Source of the DNA: an uncultured Spirochaetaceae bacterium
GTDB taxonomy: Bacteria; Spirochaetota; Spirochaetia; Sphaerochaetales; Sphaerochaetaceae
Assembly: GCA_944389065.1 (NCBI GenBank)
Contig: CALXKZ010000069.1
Coordinates: 1 to 64,000, forward strand
Direction: 5' to 3'
DNA length: 64,000 nucleotides
Each line of letters starts with the position of its first letter. The first letter of the stretch is position 1. A model generated the notes under the pieces. It searched no databases. It saw only the letters and a program-made list of their open reading frames with translations, and was not told the DNA's origin. Below are positions 14,582 to 20,396 of the stretch, in pieces. A program made the position numbers and the translations under genes.

Positions 14582-14657
14582 AAGAAAAAGTATCCATTGT
14601 TTTCTGTAGCCAGTATGCTATGATATATATTTGAAATCAGACACAAAGGAGTTTTCA

Positions 14658-14840
14658 ATGACAATTCATGAGGAGCTTGTCTCGCAGTTTGAGACATATC
14701 TTGCTGAGAATAAGAGGTTCGAGGAGAAAGGCATTAAGGTATCAGGAGCAAGAGCGAGAAAGGCACTTGCTGAAATCGGAAAGCTCTGCAAGGAGAGAAG
14801 GAAGGAAATCCAGGACGCCAAGACAAGCGCCGAAGGCTAA
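14658..14840 (+). CDS. Histone H1-like small basic protein (Hc1 type)
   Basis: This 60-residue protein starts at ATG 14658, 6 bases after AAAGGAG; a start 9 codons earlier lacks a ribosome site. It is a helical, Lys/Arg-rich protein with the motif KVSGARARKALAEIGKLCKERRKEIQ. This resembles the Hc1 histone-like family of chlamydiae and small histone H1-like proteins of spirochaetes and Bacteroidetes, which bind DNA and compact the nucleoid. The Ala-rich Hc2-type tail is absent. It is a single gene ended by a clear terminator. Assignment is by residue pattern over a short length. Confidence 0.65.
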   Translation: MTIHEELVSQFETYLAENKRFEEKGIKVSGARARKALAEIGKLCKERRKEIQDAKTSAEG

Positions 14841-14852
14841 TACATGAACTGA

Positions 14853-14879
14853 AGAGGCTCACAAGGGCCTCTTTCTTTT
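14853..14879 (+). terminator. Rho-independent terminator of the histone-like gene
   Basis: The stem AGAGGC (14853-14858) with GCCTCT (14867-14872) has an 8-base loop and is followed by TTCTTTT. It lies 12 bases after the stop codon. Confidence 0.8.
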
Positions 14880-14941
14880 GCTTGATATCGTATTTCTCTG
14901 TGTTTTTGTTTTTTCCATCTAGCCAAGAGAGGATGGCGCTG

Positions 14942-15013
14942 TTATCATTGCCCTTGCATCCCCGGCGTTGCCGGGAGACTAAGAAAGAGGAATCGGCACA
15001 GCCGGAATGATAA
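14942..15013 (+). ncRNA. Structured leader RNA of dat-ddc, candidate DABA-DC-AT motif
   Basis: Three stems can be read directly. P1 is TTATCATT (14942-14949) with AATGATAA (15006-15013). P2 is CCCGGC (14961-14966) with GCCGGG (14970-14975) around GTT. P3 is TCGGC (14993-14997) with GCCGG (15001-15005) around ACA. P1 closes both others, giving a three-way junction whose joining segments are unpaired, with purine-rich AGACTAAGAAAGAGGAA between P2 and P3. It ends 25 bases before the aminotransferase ATG, close to its AAAGGA ribosome site. A motif called DABA-DC-AT has been described from comparative genomics upstream of diaminobutyrate aminotransferase/decarboxylase genes. Position and gene context fit; a covariance match was not run. 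Confidence 0.6.
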
Positions 15014-15037
15014 TCATGGAATAAGGACAGAAAGGAC

Positions 15038-16390
15038 ATGAACACACACAGCAACAAGTACTTCACTGACCGTCAGAGTGACTTTGAGTCATCAGCAAGG
15101 AGCTATCCCAGGAAATTCCCTGTAGCTCTCGTAAAGGCAAAAGGATCATGGGTAGAGGATGCAGATGGCAGAAGATACCTCGATTTCCTTTGCGGAGCAG
15201 GAACGCTTGCTCTCGGGCATAATAACGACAGCGTGAATAAGGCGATGATCGACCTTATATCATCAGGAGCCCCTCTCCATACACTCGACCTCACAACCCC
15301 TGCAAAAGACAGATTCGTCGAGGCGATATTCTCAACCCTTCCGGAAAAGCTAAGGACAAATGCAAAGATACAGTTCTGCTCACCCTCAGGAACAGATGCT
15401 ACCGATGCTGCTATCAAGCTCTGCAAGACTGCGACAGGAAGAGGATCGGTGATGGCATTCTCCGGCGGTTATCATGGAATGGGCCATGGAGCCCTCGCCC
15501 TTACCGGTAACCATAATGCGAAGAACAAGGTGCAGAATCTTATGCCTGGCGTGCAGTTCATGCCATATCCTTATTCATACAGATGCCCGTTCGGACTTGG
15601 AGGAGAAGCGGGAGAGAAAGCTGCCTCTGCGTATTTTGAGAGAATGCTCAAGGACCCGGAAAGCGGTGTTACACGCCCAGCAGCTGTCATTCTGGAAGCC
15701 ATACAGGGAGAGGGAGGAGTAATCCCTGCCCCACGCTCATTCCTAAAGACTGTTAGGAGAGTGACAGAGGAACTCTCTATACCTCTCATCCTTGATGAGA
15801 TCCAGTGCGGAATGGGAAGATCCGGGGATATCTGGGCATTCGAGGATGCGGGTATTGTTCCTGATGTCATTCTGATGAGCAAGGCAATCGGAGGCAGCCA
15901 GCCGATGAGCGTCGTCGTATACAATAAGGACCTTGATGCATGGACCGCAGGTGCCCACGCAGGCACATTCCGTGGCAACCAGCTTGCGATGGCTGCAGGC
16001 ACCGTTGTGCTTGAGACGATATCGAAGCCCGGATTCCTTGAGGAAGTAAAGAGAAAAGGAGATATCATCAGGAATGCGCTGATGGATCTCAAGAATGAAA
16101 TATCGATAATAGGCGATGTGCGCGGCAGGGGGCTCATGATTGGGATAGAGTTCATAGATCCTGCAGGAAAGAAGGACATAATGGGTAATCCCGTACCCAG
16201 CAGTGAGATTGCCGCCCAGATTCAGAAAAGATGCTTTGAGCGCGGACTCATCATGGAAAAGGGTGGAAGGAACGGAAGTGTCATGAGATGCCTCTGTGCC
16301 CTGACTGTCTCTGACAGCGAGATCGATACCATGCTCGATATTTTCTCGTCAGCAGCTATGGAGCTTGACCGTGAGATCAGGTATCGATGA
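15038..16390 (+). CDS. dat: L-2,4-diaminobutyrate:2-oxoglutarate 4-aminotransferase
   Basis: This 450-residue class III, PLP-dependent aminotransferase has AGTLALGHNN near residue 52, FCSPSGTDATDAAIKLCKTAT near 112, and the PLP aspartate in ILDEIQCGMGRSG near 251. The PLP lysine is in ILMSKAIGGSQPMSVV near 281. The pattern fits the EctB/Dat group, which makes L-2,4-diaminobutyrate from aspartate semialdehyde and glutamate. The directly following decarboxylase makes the diaminopropane assignment more likely than ectoine synthesis, since ectA and ectC are absent. A structured leader RNA lies upstream. The ATG has an AAAGGA ribosome site. Confidence 0.88.
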   Translation: MNTHSNKYFTDRQSDFESSARSYPRKFPVALVKAKGSWVEDADGRRYLDFLCGAGTLALGHNNDSVNKAMIDLISSGAPLHTLDLTTPAKDRFVEAIFSTLPEKLRTNAKIQFCSPSGTDATDAAIKLCKTATGRGSVMAFSGGYHGMGHGALALTGNHNAKNKVQNLMPGVQFMPYPYSYRCPFGLGGEAGEKAASAYFERMLKDPESGVTRPAAVILEAIQGEGGVIPAPRSFLKTVRRVTEELSIPLILDEIQCGMGRSGDIWAFEDAGIVPDVILMSKAIGGSQPMSVVVYNKDLDAWTAGAHAGTFRGNQLAMAAGTVVLETISKPGFLEEVKRKGDIIRNALMDLKNEISIIGDVRGRGLMIGIEFIDPAGKKDIMGNPVPSSEIAAQIQKRCFERGLIMEKGGRNGSVMRCLCALTVSDSEIDTMLDIFSSAAMELDREIRYR

Positions 16391-17801
16391 CATCACAGTC
16401 CTCTCCTCTGGAGAGAGGGAAAAACAGGCACTGGCAAAGGCTGTCAATGAGATGCTTGAAGCCATTCTATCATCGATGGAGGACGACAGGGCCTACTCAG
16501 GAATAGATCCGGTAAGACTCCGATCCTTGATAAGCTCCCTTCCAGTCCTCCCAGGCAAGGGAGACGGATGGAATGGGATGATGGACAGCATCAGGAAGGA
16601 TATCATTCCGCATATGCTCCGGACATGGTCTACTTCCTATATGCCGCACCTCCACTCCCCTGTCCTTATCGAGACAATTGCATCCGAGCTGATGATCGCC
16701 GCATTCAACAGCAGCATGGACAGCTGGGATCAGGGACCGGCGGCTACAGAGATCGAAGTGAGGGTTGTGGATGAGCTTCTCTCGATATTCGGATATGGAG
16801 AAGGCGCAGACGGTACATTCACATCGGGCGGAAGCCAGTCAAACATCTCTGCCATGATAATCCACAGGGACCGTTTTCTCGATAAGCTCGGATACGATGT
16901 GAAGAAGGAAGGCCTTCCCCCGCTCTTGAATAAGCTCAGGATCTACGTTTCGGGGATCTCCCACTTCTCTTTCGACAAAGGTGCCCATATCCTCGGACTT
17001 GGATACAATGCCGTAGTCAAGCTTCCTGTCGATGAATTCTGCCGCATCAATACAGAGAAGGCGGAGAGAATCATTATGGAGGATAAGGCAGATGGATTCA
17101 TTCCTTTCATGATCGCAGCGACAGCAGGTACTACCGACTTCGGAAGCATTGATGATCTGGAAGCTCTCAGGAAAATCGCAGATAAGCACGGCATGTATCT
17201 TCATGCAGATGCGGCATATGGATCAGGAGCGATCCTCTCAAGCTACAGTGACAGAGTATCGTCACTGCATCTTGCCGACTCGATCACAGTGGACTTCCAC
17301 AAGATGTTCCTGATACCTATCAGCGCCTCCGCGCTTTTGGTGAAGGACGGTTCGGAGCTTGAAGCGTTCCAGCTCCATGCCGATTACCTCAACAGAAAGG
17401 AGGATGAGGAGGACGGATACATAAACCTCGTCGGAAAATCAATGCAGACGACAAGGCGCTTTGATGCATTGAAAGTCTACATGGCTTTCAGGATGAGAGG
17501 GCGCGACGGATACAGGAAGATCATAGACAGGATGATGGATAACGCATCATATTTCTATCGATGCATATCCTCCGACAGCGAATTCATCGCACCTGTCAAG
17601 CCCGAGCTCAGCTCTGTCGTCTTTGCTCTCTGTGGCGGTGATGACAGAAACAGGAATGCAAGAAGAGCGCTGATGCAGGAAGGAATAATAATCGGCCAGA
17701 CAGTCTACAAAGACCAGGTGATGCTTAAGTTCACCCTGCTCAACCCTGCTCTAAGCCATGATCATATAGATACCCTTATCAAAAGAATCAGATCTCTCTG
17801 A
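16371..17801 (+). CDS. ddc: L-2,4-diaminobutyrate decarboxylase
   Basis: This 476-residue group II PLP decarboxylase converts L-2,4-diaminobutyrate to 1,3-diaminopropane in the cytoplasm. It carries GTFTSGGSQSNISAM near residue 147, HADAAYGSGAIL near 276 with the PLP-contacting Asp, and the PLP lysine in DSITVDFHKMF near 307. I place the start at GTG 16371, 7 bases after GGAG inside the end of dat; TTG at 16365 would be only one base from that ribosome site. The 20-base overlap with dat implies coupled translation. Carboxynorspermidine genes are not in the window, so diaminopropane may be the product or feed a pathway elsewhere. Confidence 0.85.
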   Translation: MRSGIDDITVLSSGEREKQALAKAVNEMLEAILSSMEDDRAYSGIDPVRLRSLISSLPVLPGKGDGWNGMMDSIRKDIIPHMLRTWSTSYMPHLHSPVLIETIASELMIAAFNSSMDSWDQGPAATEIEVRVVDELLSIFGYGEGADGTFTSGGSQSNISAMIIHRDRFLDKLGYDVKKEGLPPLLNKLRIYVSGISHFSFDKGAHILGLGYNAVVKLPVDEFCRINTEKAERIIMEDKADGFIPFMIAATAGTTDFGSIDDLEALRKIADKHGMYLHADAAYGSGAILSSYSDRVSSLHLADSITVDFHKMFLIPISASALLVKDGSELEAFQLHADYLNRKEDEEDGYINLVGKSMQTTRRFDALKVYMAFRMRGRDGYRKIIDRMMDNASYFYRCISSDSEFIAPVKPELSSVVFALCGGDDRNRNARRALMQEGIIIGQTVYKDQVMLKFTLLNPALSHDHIDTLIKRIRSL

Positions 17802-18159
17802 TATCAGGGCATTCAATCTCCATGAGGCTCTCTATCATTGAATGGAGGAGCCTCGATTTCTCTGTATCGGCAGCTTTATAATACACCTCTTTCCCGCTTC
17901 TCCTGCTGACAATCAGATTCCCGGCCTTGAGCTGTCTGAGATGGTGGGAGACGGCAGGACTTGACATATTCACGATCGAAGAGAGATTTATCACGCACTC
18001 TTCAAGATGGCAGAGAACCCAGAAGATCCTAAGCCTGCTCTCATCGCCAAGCTGGCTGAAGATATATGAAAGGGTCTGAAAGCTTCCCTCTGAGGGAAGA
18101 TGCGCAATGAGCTTCTCTGCATTCTGCCCATGATCATGCGGCAATGATGGATATGACAT
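17788..18159 (-). CDS. ArsR/SmtB-family metal-responsive repressor
   Basis: This 123-residue winged-helix protein has a recognition helix in SSPAVSHHLRQLKAGNLI and a wing at RRSGKEVYY. The helix usually holding the alpha-3N metal site reads CHLEECVINLSSI, with cysteines in the expected place of ELCVCDL-type sensors. The N-terminus carries His/Asp (LPHDHGQN), and C-terminal His/Glu residues could complete an alpha-5 site, as in zinc or cadmium sensors. It is divergent from an HMA protein and P1B-ATPase with a 26-base palindromic operator between them, so it should repress both. Its 3-prime end overlaps the converging ddc by 14 bases. Confidence 0.88.
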   Translation of the reverse strand: MSYPSLPHDHGQNAEKLIAHLPSEGSFQTLSYIFSQLGDESRLRIFWVLCHLEECVINLSSIVNMSSPAVSHHLRQLKAGNLIVSRRSGKEVYYKAADTEKSRLLHSMIESLMEIECPDIREI

Positions 18160-18243
18160 ACTTCAATGATAATGTTTTCATCATCTTTCGGAAATGGCTT
18201 TTCCTCTATTGACGTACAGCAGATGGAGGATTATTATTGAATC

Positions 18244-18269
18244 AACAATTAAAAGATTGTTTAATTGTT
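18244..18269. promoter_or_regulatory. ArsR-family operator
   Basis: A perfect 10-bp inverted repeat, AACAATTAAA (18244-18253) and TTTAATTGTT (18260-18269), is separated by 6 bases. It is AT-rich like known SmtB/CzrA-type operators. It ends 14 bases before the HMA-protein ATG, over its probable ribosome and start region, and lies 84 bases from the arsR start. Confidence 0.75.
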
Positions 18270-18283
18270 AAAGGAACAGCCCC

Positions 18284-18502
18284 ATGAAGAAGATATACGG
18301 AATCGAAGTCGACTGCGCTAACTGCGCAAATAAAATGGAGAATGCTGCATCAAGGACAGATGGAGTCAAGGCATGCACTGTGAATTTCATGACACAGAAG
18401 ATGATCGTCGAATTCCAGGAAGGCGCTGACAGGGACTTGGTGATGGATAACGTCAGAAAGAACTGCAAGAGAGTCGAAAGAGACTGCGAAGTCTTCATCT
18501 GA
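18284..18502 (+). CDS. Heavy-metal-associated (HMA) domain protein
   Basis: This 72-residue single HMA domain with a ferredoxin-like fold carries the metal-binding CxxC in EVDCANCANKME near residue 11, followed by the usual GVKACTVNFMTQKM strand. It probably binds Zn, Cd or Cu and hands it to the P-type ATPase encoded 10 bases downstream. The ATPase itself lacks an N-terminal HMA domain, so the two act like a split CadA/ZntA. It is under the ArsR operator. Confidence 0.85.
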   Translation: MKKIYGIEVDCANCANKMENAASRTDGVKACTVNFMTQKMIVEFQEGADRDLVMDNVRKNCKRVERDCEVFI

Positions 18503-18512
18503 GAGGAAAACA

Positions 18513-20396
18513 ATGAACAGAAAGCAGAAGCTGATGCTGATACGCATAGTGCTATCCATGCTGATGACAGTGGCGTTATCATTTATCCCTGTATCAGGAA
18601 TACCCCGCTTCGCACTCTATATGGCGGCATACCTGATTGTCGGCTATGATATCCTCCTCAAAGCTGCGAGGGGAATAATAAACGGACAGGTATTCGATGA
18701 GTGCTTTCTGATGGCAATCGCAACTGTCGGAGCAATTGCTCTGGCCATTTATGAGAATAGCGGGGATTACACAGAAGCTGTGGCTGTAATGCTTTTCTAT
18801 CAGGTGGGGGAGCTCTTCCAGAGCTATGCTGTAGGCAGGAGCAGGAAGAACATCACAGAGCTGATGGATATACGCCCCGACTATGCTAATATCGAGAAGG
18901 ATGGGAAGCTTGAGCGCGTTGATCCTGAGGATGTGGAAAGAGGATCCGTGATCATTGTACAGCCTGGGGAGAAGGTTCCTATCGACGGTGTTGTCATCGA
19001 AGGATCCTCATCTCTCAACACTAGTGCACTGACAGGTGAAAGCCTTCCAAGGGATATCCATGAAGGCGATGGGATAATCTCAGGATCGATAAACCTTACA
19101 GGAGTGTTGAAGATAAGGACAGAGAAGGAGTTCGGAGAATCGACTGTCTCAAAAATCCTGGATCTTGTCGAGAATGCAAGTTCCAGGAAATCCAGATCCG
19201 AGGACTTCATATCGAAGTTCGCCAGGGTATACACCCCCGCAGTCTGCCTCTCTGCTCTTGCCCTTGCCATTCTTCCTCCCCTTTTCCTGATCCTGGCCGG
19301 GAATCAGCCGATGTGGGAGAGCTGGACTTACAGAGCCCTGACGTTCCTTGTCATATCATGTCCATGCGCACTCGTCATATCCATCCCACTTTCGTTCTTC
19401 GCCGGCATCGGGGGAGCCAGCAATGCAGGCATCCTGATAAAAGGCTCGAACTATCTCGAGACATTGTCAAAGACGAAGATAGTTGTCTTCGATAAGACAG
19501 GAACCCTTACAGAAGGTGTGTTCGAGGTGAATGGAATACACCATGGAACGATCGATGACGAGAAGATAATCGAGTATGCCGCGCTTGCAGAGAGCGCCTC
19601 ATCCCACCCTATATCGAAAAGCCTGCAGAAAGCTTATGGAATGGAAATAGACAGATCCAGGGTATCGGATATCGAAGAAATAAGCGGGAATGGAATCAAA
19701 GCCGTCGTTGACGGACATGATATAGCTTGCGGAAATGATAAGCTGATGCATTCCCTTGGTATCGACCCGATAATGTGTCACAGCACTGGCACTATCATAC
19801 ACGTTGCCATCGATGGCAGGTACTCTGGCCATATAGTCATATCAGATGTGATCAAAAAGCAGTCAAAGGCTGCAATAACAGCCCTGAAGGATATCGGTAT
19901 AAGAAAAACAGTGATGCTTACAGGCGATGGGCAGAAAGCCGCAGAGAGCGTTGCATCTGAGCTAGGCATTGATGAGGAGTACAGCAATCTTCTTCCTGCG
20001 GACAAGGTTGGAAAAGTAGAGGAGCTTCTGCAGTCAGAAGGAAGGAAGGAGAAACTGGCATTCGTCGGAGACGGAATAAACGATGCACCGGTCCTTGGCC
20101 GGGCAGACATAGGCATCGCGATGGGTGCAATGGGATCGGATGCTGCTATCGAAGCTGCCGATGTGGTCCTGATGGATGATGATCCGATGAAGATAGCGAA
20201 AGCAATACGCATTTCGCAGAAATGCCTCCGCATAGTCTATGAGAACATCGTATTCGCACTAGGCATCAAGCTCATATGCCTTGTTCTCGGCGCTATGGGG
20301 ATTGCAAACATGTGGCTTGCGATCTTCGCCGATGTCGGCGTCATGGTCATTGCAGTGCTGAATGCAATAAGAGCCCTGAATACAAAGAGACTCTGA
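18513..20396 (+). CDS. Heavy-metal P1B-type ATPase (CadA/ZntA-like)
   Basis: This 627-residue metal pump of the inner membrane has the actuator motif TGES near residue 176, the transmembrane CPC motif in ISCPCALVISIP near 288, the phosphorylated Asp in VFDKTGTLTEG near 328, the nucleotide-domain SSHPIS motif and the hinge GDGINDAPVL near 514. Its N-terminal HMA domain is missing and is supplied by the preceding gene. CPC together with a late membrane Asp (IFADVGVM) fits Zn/Cd/Pb export rather than Cu. Expression is predicted to be derepressed when the ArsR protein binds metal. It ends at a long terminator. Confidence 0.93.
   Translation: MNRKQKLMLIRIVLSMLMTVALSFIPVSGIPRFALYMAAYLIVGYDILLKAARGIINGQVFDECFLMAIATVGAIALAIYENSGDYTEAVAVMLFYQVGELFQSYAVGRSRKNITELMDIRPDYANIEKDGKLERVDPEDVERGSVIIVQPGEKVPIDGVVIEGSSSLNTSALTGESLPRDIHEGDGIISGSINLTGVLKIRTEKEFGESTVSKILDLVENASSRKSRSEDFISKFARVYTPAVCLSALALAILPPLFLILAGNQPMWESWTYRALTFLVISCPCALVISIPLSFFAGIGGASNAGILIKGSNYLETLSKTKIVVFDKTGTLTEGVFEVNGIHHGTIDDEKIIEYAALAESASSHPISKSLQKAYGMEIDRSRVSDIEEISGNGIKAVVDGHDIACGNDKLMHSLGIDPIMCHSTGTIIHVAIDGRYSGHIVISDVIKKQSKAAITALKDIGIRKTVMLTGDGQKAAESVASELGIDEEYSNLLPADKVGKVEELLQSEGRKEKLAFVGDGINDAPVLGRADIGIAMGAMGSDAAIEAADVVLMDDDPMKIAKAIRISQKCLRIVYENIVFALGIKLICLVLGAMGIANMWLAIFADVGVMVIAVLNAIRALNTKRL

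Follow-up and report, generated by a model that had tools for sequence, protein, structure and literature searches.

A conserved two-codon upstream ORF with a putative Shine-Dalgarno sequence of its own in the dat-ddc leader of Sphaerochaetaceae-type spirochetes

By what kind of element is the diaminobutyrate operon of an uncultured Spirochaetaceae bacterium preceded? The question was raised by positions 14942–15013 of the window, i.e. the whole stretch of 64,000 nucleotides that was analysed (contig CALXKZ010000069.1, forward strand), to which all coordinates refer. A sequence-only reading had described this segment as a three-way-junction leader RNA, in which a helix P1 closes two G/C-rich hairpins, and had considered a metabolite-sensing switch controlling translation as plausible. 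The location of this 72-nt leader directly upstream of dat-ddc was borne out. The first gene, dat (15038–16390, + strand), encodes an L-2,4-diaminobutyrate:2-oxoglutarate aminotransferase (TIGR00709, 584 bits with a cut-off of 401.6). It is followed by ddc (16386–17801, + strand), which overlaps the end of dat with a start that is not fixed and encodes a PLP enzyme resembling L-2,4-diaminobutyrate decarboxylase; its best family was NF052646 with 347.7 bits, below the cut-off of 900 for that family, and a match to Pyridoxal_deC was also obtained. Jointly, both enzymes lead from aspartate semialdehyde to 1,3-diaminopropane by an established pathway. The carboxynorspermidine route was considered and dropped because nothing convincing for nspC was found in the genome (87% complete), the best score being only 26 bits with a cut-off of 409; diaminopropane is therefore probably the end product of the pathway. 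On the 3' side of ddc (17788–20396), an ArsR/SmtB-type regulator lies opposite a small ORF. By eye, this small ORF (from 18284) resembles a heavy-metal-binding protein and the ORF at 18513–20396 a P-type ATPase; the three probably form a metal-efflux unit.

Just 5' of the dat leader, a gene at 14658–14840 encodes an Hc1-like (histone H1-like) protein of 60 amino acids. An intrinsic terminator (14851–14881, + strand), made of a stem of 10 pairs (14851–14874) and a T-rich tail, separates this gene from the dat transcript, and dat therefore needs a promoter of its own. The sole promoter-like site within 14600–15100 was found at 14920–14948 (+ strand, TAGCCA-n17-TGnTATCAT), with TAGCCA as −35 box, 17 nt of spacing, TATCAT as −10 box and an extended TG. 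This promoter is conserved in relatives; the −35 box reads TAGCCA in 30 of the 36 leaders that were fitted by the promoter pattern, which itself imposes the 17-nt spacing. The conserved TAGCCA (CTAGCCA) at 14920–14925 stands in the place of TTGACA and may represent a lineage-specific −35 box or an operator. From the position of the promoter, transcription is predicted to start at 14955 (+ strand, ±2 nt), about 7 nt past the −10 box.

The inverted repeat TTATCATT/AATGATAA (14942–14949 with 15006–15013), which had been taken as P1, is present in the DNA. Its 5' arm coincides with the −10 box of the promoter, upstream of the predicted start, and should therefore be absent from the RNA. Covariation of P1, proposed earlier as a check, was not found in the homologous leaders: across the 36 leaders the two arms pair on average at 4.0 of 8 positions, as compared to 3.85 when the partners were shuffled, and full pairing (8/8) is seen in the window only. 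On both counts P1 was rejected as an RNA helix. The three-way junction was rejected as well, its closing helix being neither transcribed, according to the prediction, nor covarying. Unless transcription also begins farther upstream, P1 would be an inverted repeat that arose by chance, with one arm in the promoter DNA and the other in the leader. From the proposed architecture, the two G/C-rich hairpins were retained, while the closing helix and the junction were lost. A likely false riboswitch candidate is thereby corrected, and the case illustrates that a promoter −10 box can mimic the arm of a helix.

The leader had also been related to the DABA-DC-AT motif. This RNA, reportedly described by Weinberg and colleagues in 2017, is said to sit before diaminobutyrate decarboxylase and aminotransferase genes, and the leader of the window is like it in its placement upstream of dat-ddc. 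Membership, on the other hand, is unsupported: no Rfam match was obtained at the gathering score in the window, at E-values up to 10 around the leader, or at E-values up to 1–3 in 54 related loci, with a library that may lack the DABA-DC-AT model. No paper on DABA-DC-AT or on the dat/ddc leader was found in the literature.

Compensating changes in aligned homologous leaders were seen for both hairpins. The first one, P2 (14961–14975, + strand, CCCGGC-GTT-GCCGGG), has a covariation score that was reached by 0 of 500 shuffles, in an alignment that is partly out of register with 65% of the cells paired. The second one, P4 (14993–15005, + strand, TCGGC-ACA-GCCGG), corresponds to the hairpin P3 of the earlier reading. 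Among 50 leaders, compensating changes occur in all five pairs of P4, 98% of the cells are paired and 59 cells carry double changes; its covariation score is 0.72 versus 0.28 in shuffles, with 0 of 500 shuffles reaching that score. Between both hairpins lies a conserved ACUUA-like core (14978–14982, + strand), which reads ACTAA in the window. In folding calculations the isolated 72-mer was more stable than most shuffles (z −2.0, 8/200), while the longer leader was not outstanding (z −1.2, 22/200). The minimum-energy fold of the window joins the arms of P2 and P4 over a long range, because both hairpins are palindromic (CCGGC/GCCGG) in the window and its near relatives; this pairing was rejected, as leaders with unlike stems show separate hairpins. 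Two further pairings involve SD1, a Shine-Dalgarno-like sequence 5' of P4. The CUU of the ACUUAA core is paired with SD1 in 96.5% of the cases, mostly with invariant letters, and a slid register gives 97.2%. The 5' CCCUU of the transcript was tried as an anti-Shine-Dalgarno sequence and rejected: its complementarity to SD1 is frequent among the leaders, yet no better than with permuted partners (10.0 for the real ones, 10.6 for the permuted ones).

Two covarying hairpins flanking a conserved and mostly unpaired core, in an element restricted to dat/ddc, could be expected from a riboswitch that senses a metabolite. Its aptamer, made of both hairpins (P2 and P4) and the ACUUAA core, would bind diaminobutyrate, diaminopropane or a polyamine and open or close a ribosome site, and any AUG and stop codon nearby would be incidental or serve as output only. 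This explanation is improbable. Besides the loss of P1 and the lack of an Rfam match in the searches above, the hairpins are unlike those of an aptamer, as both the sequence and the shape of P2 are free to vary, one leader (L034) has almost no P2, and P4 is missing from 17–18 leaders. Furthermore, the best conserved letters of the leader are those of an AUG and a stop codon.

These letters belong to a two-codon mini-ORF, AUG-GAA-UAA (15016–15024, + strand), which begins 3 nt past the flagged stretch, went unnoticed in the sequence-only reading and stops 13 nt before dat. It represents the most conserved feature of the leader: in an alignment of 50 leaders, no columns are invariant except those of the AUG and of the first letter (T) of the stop codon. 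Among the dat leaders of the family, 82 were readable, and 73 of these contain a mini-ORF, defined as an AUG, one codon or none, and a stop; this figure is partly circular as the leaders were collected and scored via AUG and stop. By comparison, such a mini-ORF turns up in 3.5% of displaced windows, a background rate that rests on the window's 52 predicted genes. Less circular and firmer evidence, all of it comparative, comes from the tree counts, from SD1 and P4, and from the case of a leader in front of ddc. The second codon is found as GAA, GAG, AAA, AAG, GTA, GTG, GAC, GAT or ACT, and it is lacking in two leaders, which display a bare AUG-stop (ATGTAA, ATGTGA). The stop is TAA in 36 leaders, TAG in 25 and TGA in 12. 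Along the dat tree, at least 14 changes are required in the second codon and at least 12 in the stop codon, none of which turned the stop into a sense codon. By our own estimate, twelve changes that keep the stop would occur by chance with a probability below 1%, because at best two thirds of the changes keep a stop, even if all of them were transitions. The frame of the mini-ORF relative to dat is not conserved either (35/21/17). As the encoded residue is free and the frame is not kept, the comparison argues that the sequence of the peptide does not matter. What the leaders have conserved is AUG, one codon and stop as an ORF, as expected of a minigene. The mini-ORF is missing in nine dat leaders, including L028, L062, L063, L080 and those of the g13 and g22 genomes, and is therefore dispensable.

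The comparison of sequences also places a ribosome-binding site of its own at working distance from the mini-ORF. SD1 (14986–14992, + strand) reads AGAGGAA in the window and AAGGG in most relatives. This AAGG(G)-like sequence abuts the 5' side of P4, and the AUG comes 8–14 nt after the hairpin, so that P4 lies between SD1 and the AUG. Nearly all of the leaders devoid of P4 have AGG 6–16 nt immediately 5' of the AUG. From this pattern, P4 looks like an insert that is looped out of the spacer between SD1 and AUG. At the other end, the ribosome-binding region of dat (15023–15036, + strand) consists of AAGGA, which overlaps the stop of the mini-ORF, and AAAGGA. AGGA or GGAG is present within the spacer between mini-ORF and dat in 61 of 73 leaders, and the distance from stop to dat start has a median of 13 nt, mostly 10–17 nt. 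In a terminating ribosome, the 3' edge lies some 15 nt past the P site. Since the dat Shine-Dalgarno sequence begins at the stop of the mini-ORF, it would be covered by the terminating ribosome.

Alternatively, AUGGAAUAAGGA could be an untranslated but conserved part of the dat ribosome site, or a sequence bound by an RNA or a protein, in line with its position adjoining the dat Shine-Dalgarno sequence. This is very improbable, given that the three stops interchange, that the second codon varies at all three bases and can be lost with the stop being kept, and that a separate SD1 is located at ribosomal distance. That the mini-ORF is translated can be inferred with high confidence.

The distribution of the element was analysed with a model (R1) comprising the unit of SD1, P4 and mini-ORF, which was scanned over 138 genomes of the family. 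One match per genome was obtained in 55 of the 138 genomes, and it is located before dat with two exceptions. In one genome (G131), which was not part of the R1 model, no dat was found and the same leader, with a second codon not seen in the dat leaders (ATG-GCA-TAA), precedes ddc (L267:396-1856). In the other (G017), a weak, chance-like match lies inside a coding region. As judged from these matches, the element is one that tracks the dat/ddc pathway. Mini-ORFs before other genes of the window's genome were considered and rejected, as R1 matches only dat/ddc besides the weak match in a coding region; a search with the mini-ORF pattern gave 17 places in that genome, of which only the one at dat was convincing. 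Elsewhere in the same genome (L110, G000:C74:30475), ATGGAATAATGGAAGGAAGG is found immediately 5' of a 501-codon frame.

In distant homologues, which served as a second control, such a mini-ORF was present in about 4 of 67 cases (~6%). Leaders from Treponemataceae (an inferred name) and other Spirochaetia (L125–L155) display a conserved GUAAUGGAGAA within the 20 nt that precede dat: TAA, TGA or TAG occupies a fixed position as a stop triplet, and an AUG or GUG is located 13–14 nt before dat and out of frame with it. Two of them have a bare start-stop before dat, ATGTGA in L134 and ATGTAA in L154. The sequence in front of dat in this group is possibly a related start-stop device. Copies of dat with about 70% identity, devoid of the mini-ORF, were also found on contigs labelled as Methanomethylophilaceae archaeon from goat and deer (L162–L164), which is attributed to misbinning or transfer.

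Taken together, the comparison of leaders shows the mini-ORF with SD1, both hairpins (P4 and P2), the promoter, and the association of the element with dat or ddc. The sequence-only reading was right in seeing a structured leader directly before dat-ddc, with dat translation as the likely control point. The reading that we favour, and consider probable, is a translated minimal upstream ORF, the ribosome of which overlaps the ribosome site of dat and couples or attenuates the translation of dat-ddc. In this model, looping out of P4 would bring SD1 to working distance from the AUG of the mini-ORF. Ribosomes would start there and terminate almost immediately, 13 nt 5' of dat and atop its Shine-Dalgarno sequence. 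Owing to this overlap, dat and the mini-ORF could not be initiated independently of each other, and translation of the mini-ORF would either compete with dat initiation or feed it. The speed at which the ribosome terminates and leaves, or re-initiates, would then set the translation of dat-ddc. We infer, with reasonable confidence, that the mini-ORF controls dat-ddc.

A sub-case of this upstream ORF reading dispenses with regulation: the mini-ORF would be a constitutive enhancer, whose sole role is to attract ribosomes or to shield the mRNA so that dat is translated well, with nothing being sensed. A precedent exists in the axe-txe minigene, by which the following gene is translated more strongly, in cis and across a gap of 15 nt from stop to start (PMC8708949), as compared to 13 nt here. 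The conserved hairpin between SD1 and AUG and the core suggest more than a simple enhancer, and this sub-case is considered unlikely. Returning to a regulated upstream ORF, polyamines (diaminopropane, spermidine) may alter the effect of the mini-ORF, via termination or via the region of P2, core and SD1, with the balance of probability somewhat against it. A peptide-independent start-stop attenuator, in which polyamine- or diaminopropane-modulated termination on the upstream ORF feeds back on the operon of Sphaerochaetaceae-type spirochetes, is possible, if rather doubtful. Such a device would be a bacterial counterpart of the eukaryotic start-stop and polyamine control by upstream ORFs, and the hairpin between Shine-Dalgarno sequence and AUG would add an extra control point. 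The dat leader offers a compact system for testing start-stop control of the next gene by termination and the action of polyamines.

Minimal ORFs have been known from the bar minigenes of phage lambda (AUG-AUA-stop), which have their own Shine-Dalgarno sequence and show slow termination and drop-off of peptidyl-tRNA. They share with the dat mini-ORF the two-codon format and the dedicated Shine-Dalgarno sequence; they differ in being neither cis leaders of a gene nor conserved leaders. In the toxin-antitoxin operon axe-txe, 15 nt separate the end of the two-codon minigene mg2 from the toxin gene, and the effect of mg2 in cis is positive, possibly through protection of the mRNA (PMC8708949). For the ler (LEE1) minigene, cited in the same source, the sign of the effect depends on distance (PMC8708949). 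Both resemble the dat mini-ORF in having ATG, one codon and stop shortly before the main start, and they act in cis on how the following gene is translated, as is predicted for dat. Unlike them, the dat mini-ORF is conserved across seven genera, has its own Shine-Dalgarno sequence and an apparently looped-out hairpin, and belongs to an operon for polyamine-type biosynthesis; moreover, the axe-txe minigene lies within the antitoxin gene.

Upstream ORFs in leaders of polyamine genes are also found in enterobacteria, where speFL and mdtU of E. coli respond to ornithine or spermidine and control the downstream gene (PMC7815308). By analogy, a polyamine response of the dat leader is plausible. The peptides of speFL and mdtU have tens of residues (34 codons for mdtU) and a conserved sequence, whereas the dat mini-ORF has no peptide to conserve; they act via Rho termination or mRNA structure, whereas no terminator is seen in the dat leader. 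The presence of the mini-ORF in 73 leaders, with both codon and stop changing, argues for long-term selection on the minimal ORF itself and not on a peptide. Bacterial two-codon minigenes have been known as isolated cases; to this known kind the dat leader adds a new form, which is conserved, spaced by a hairpin and placed before a diaminobutyrate operon.
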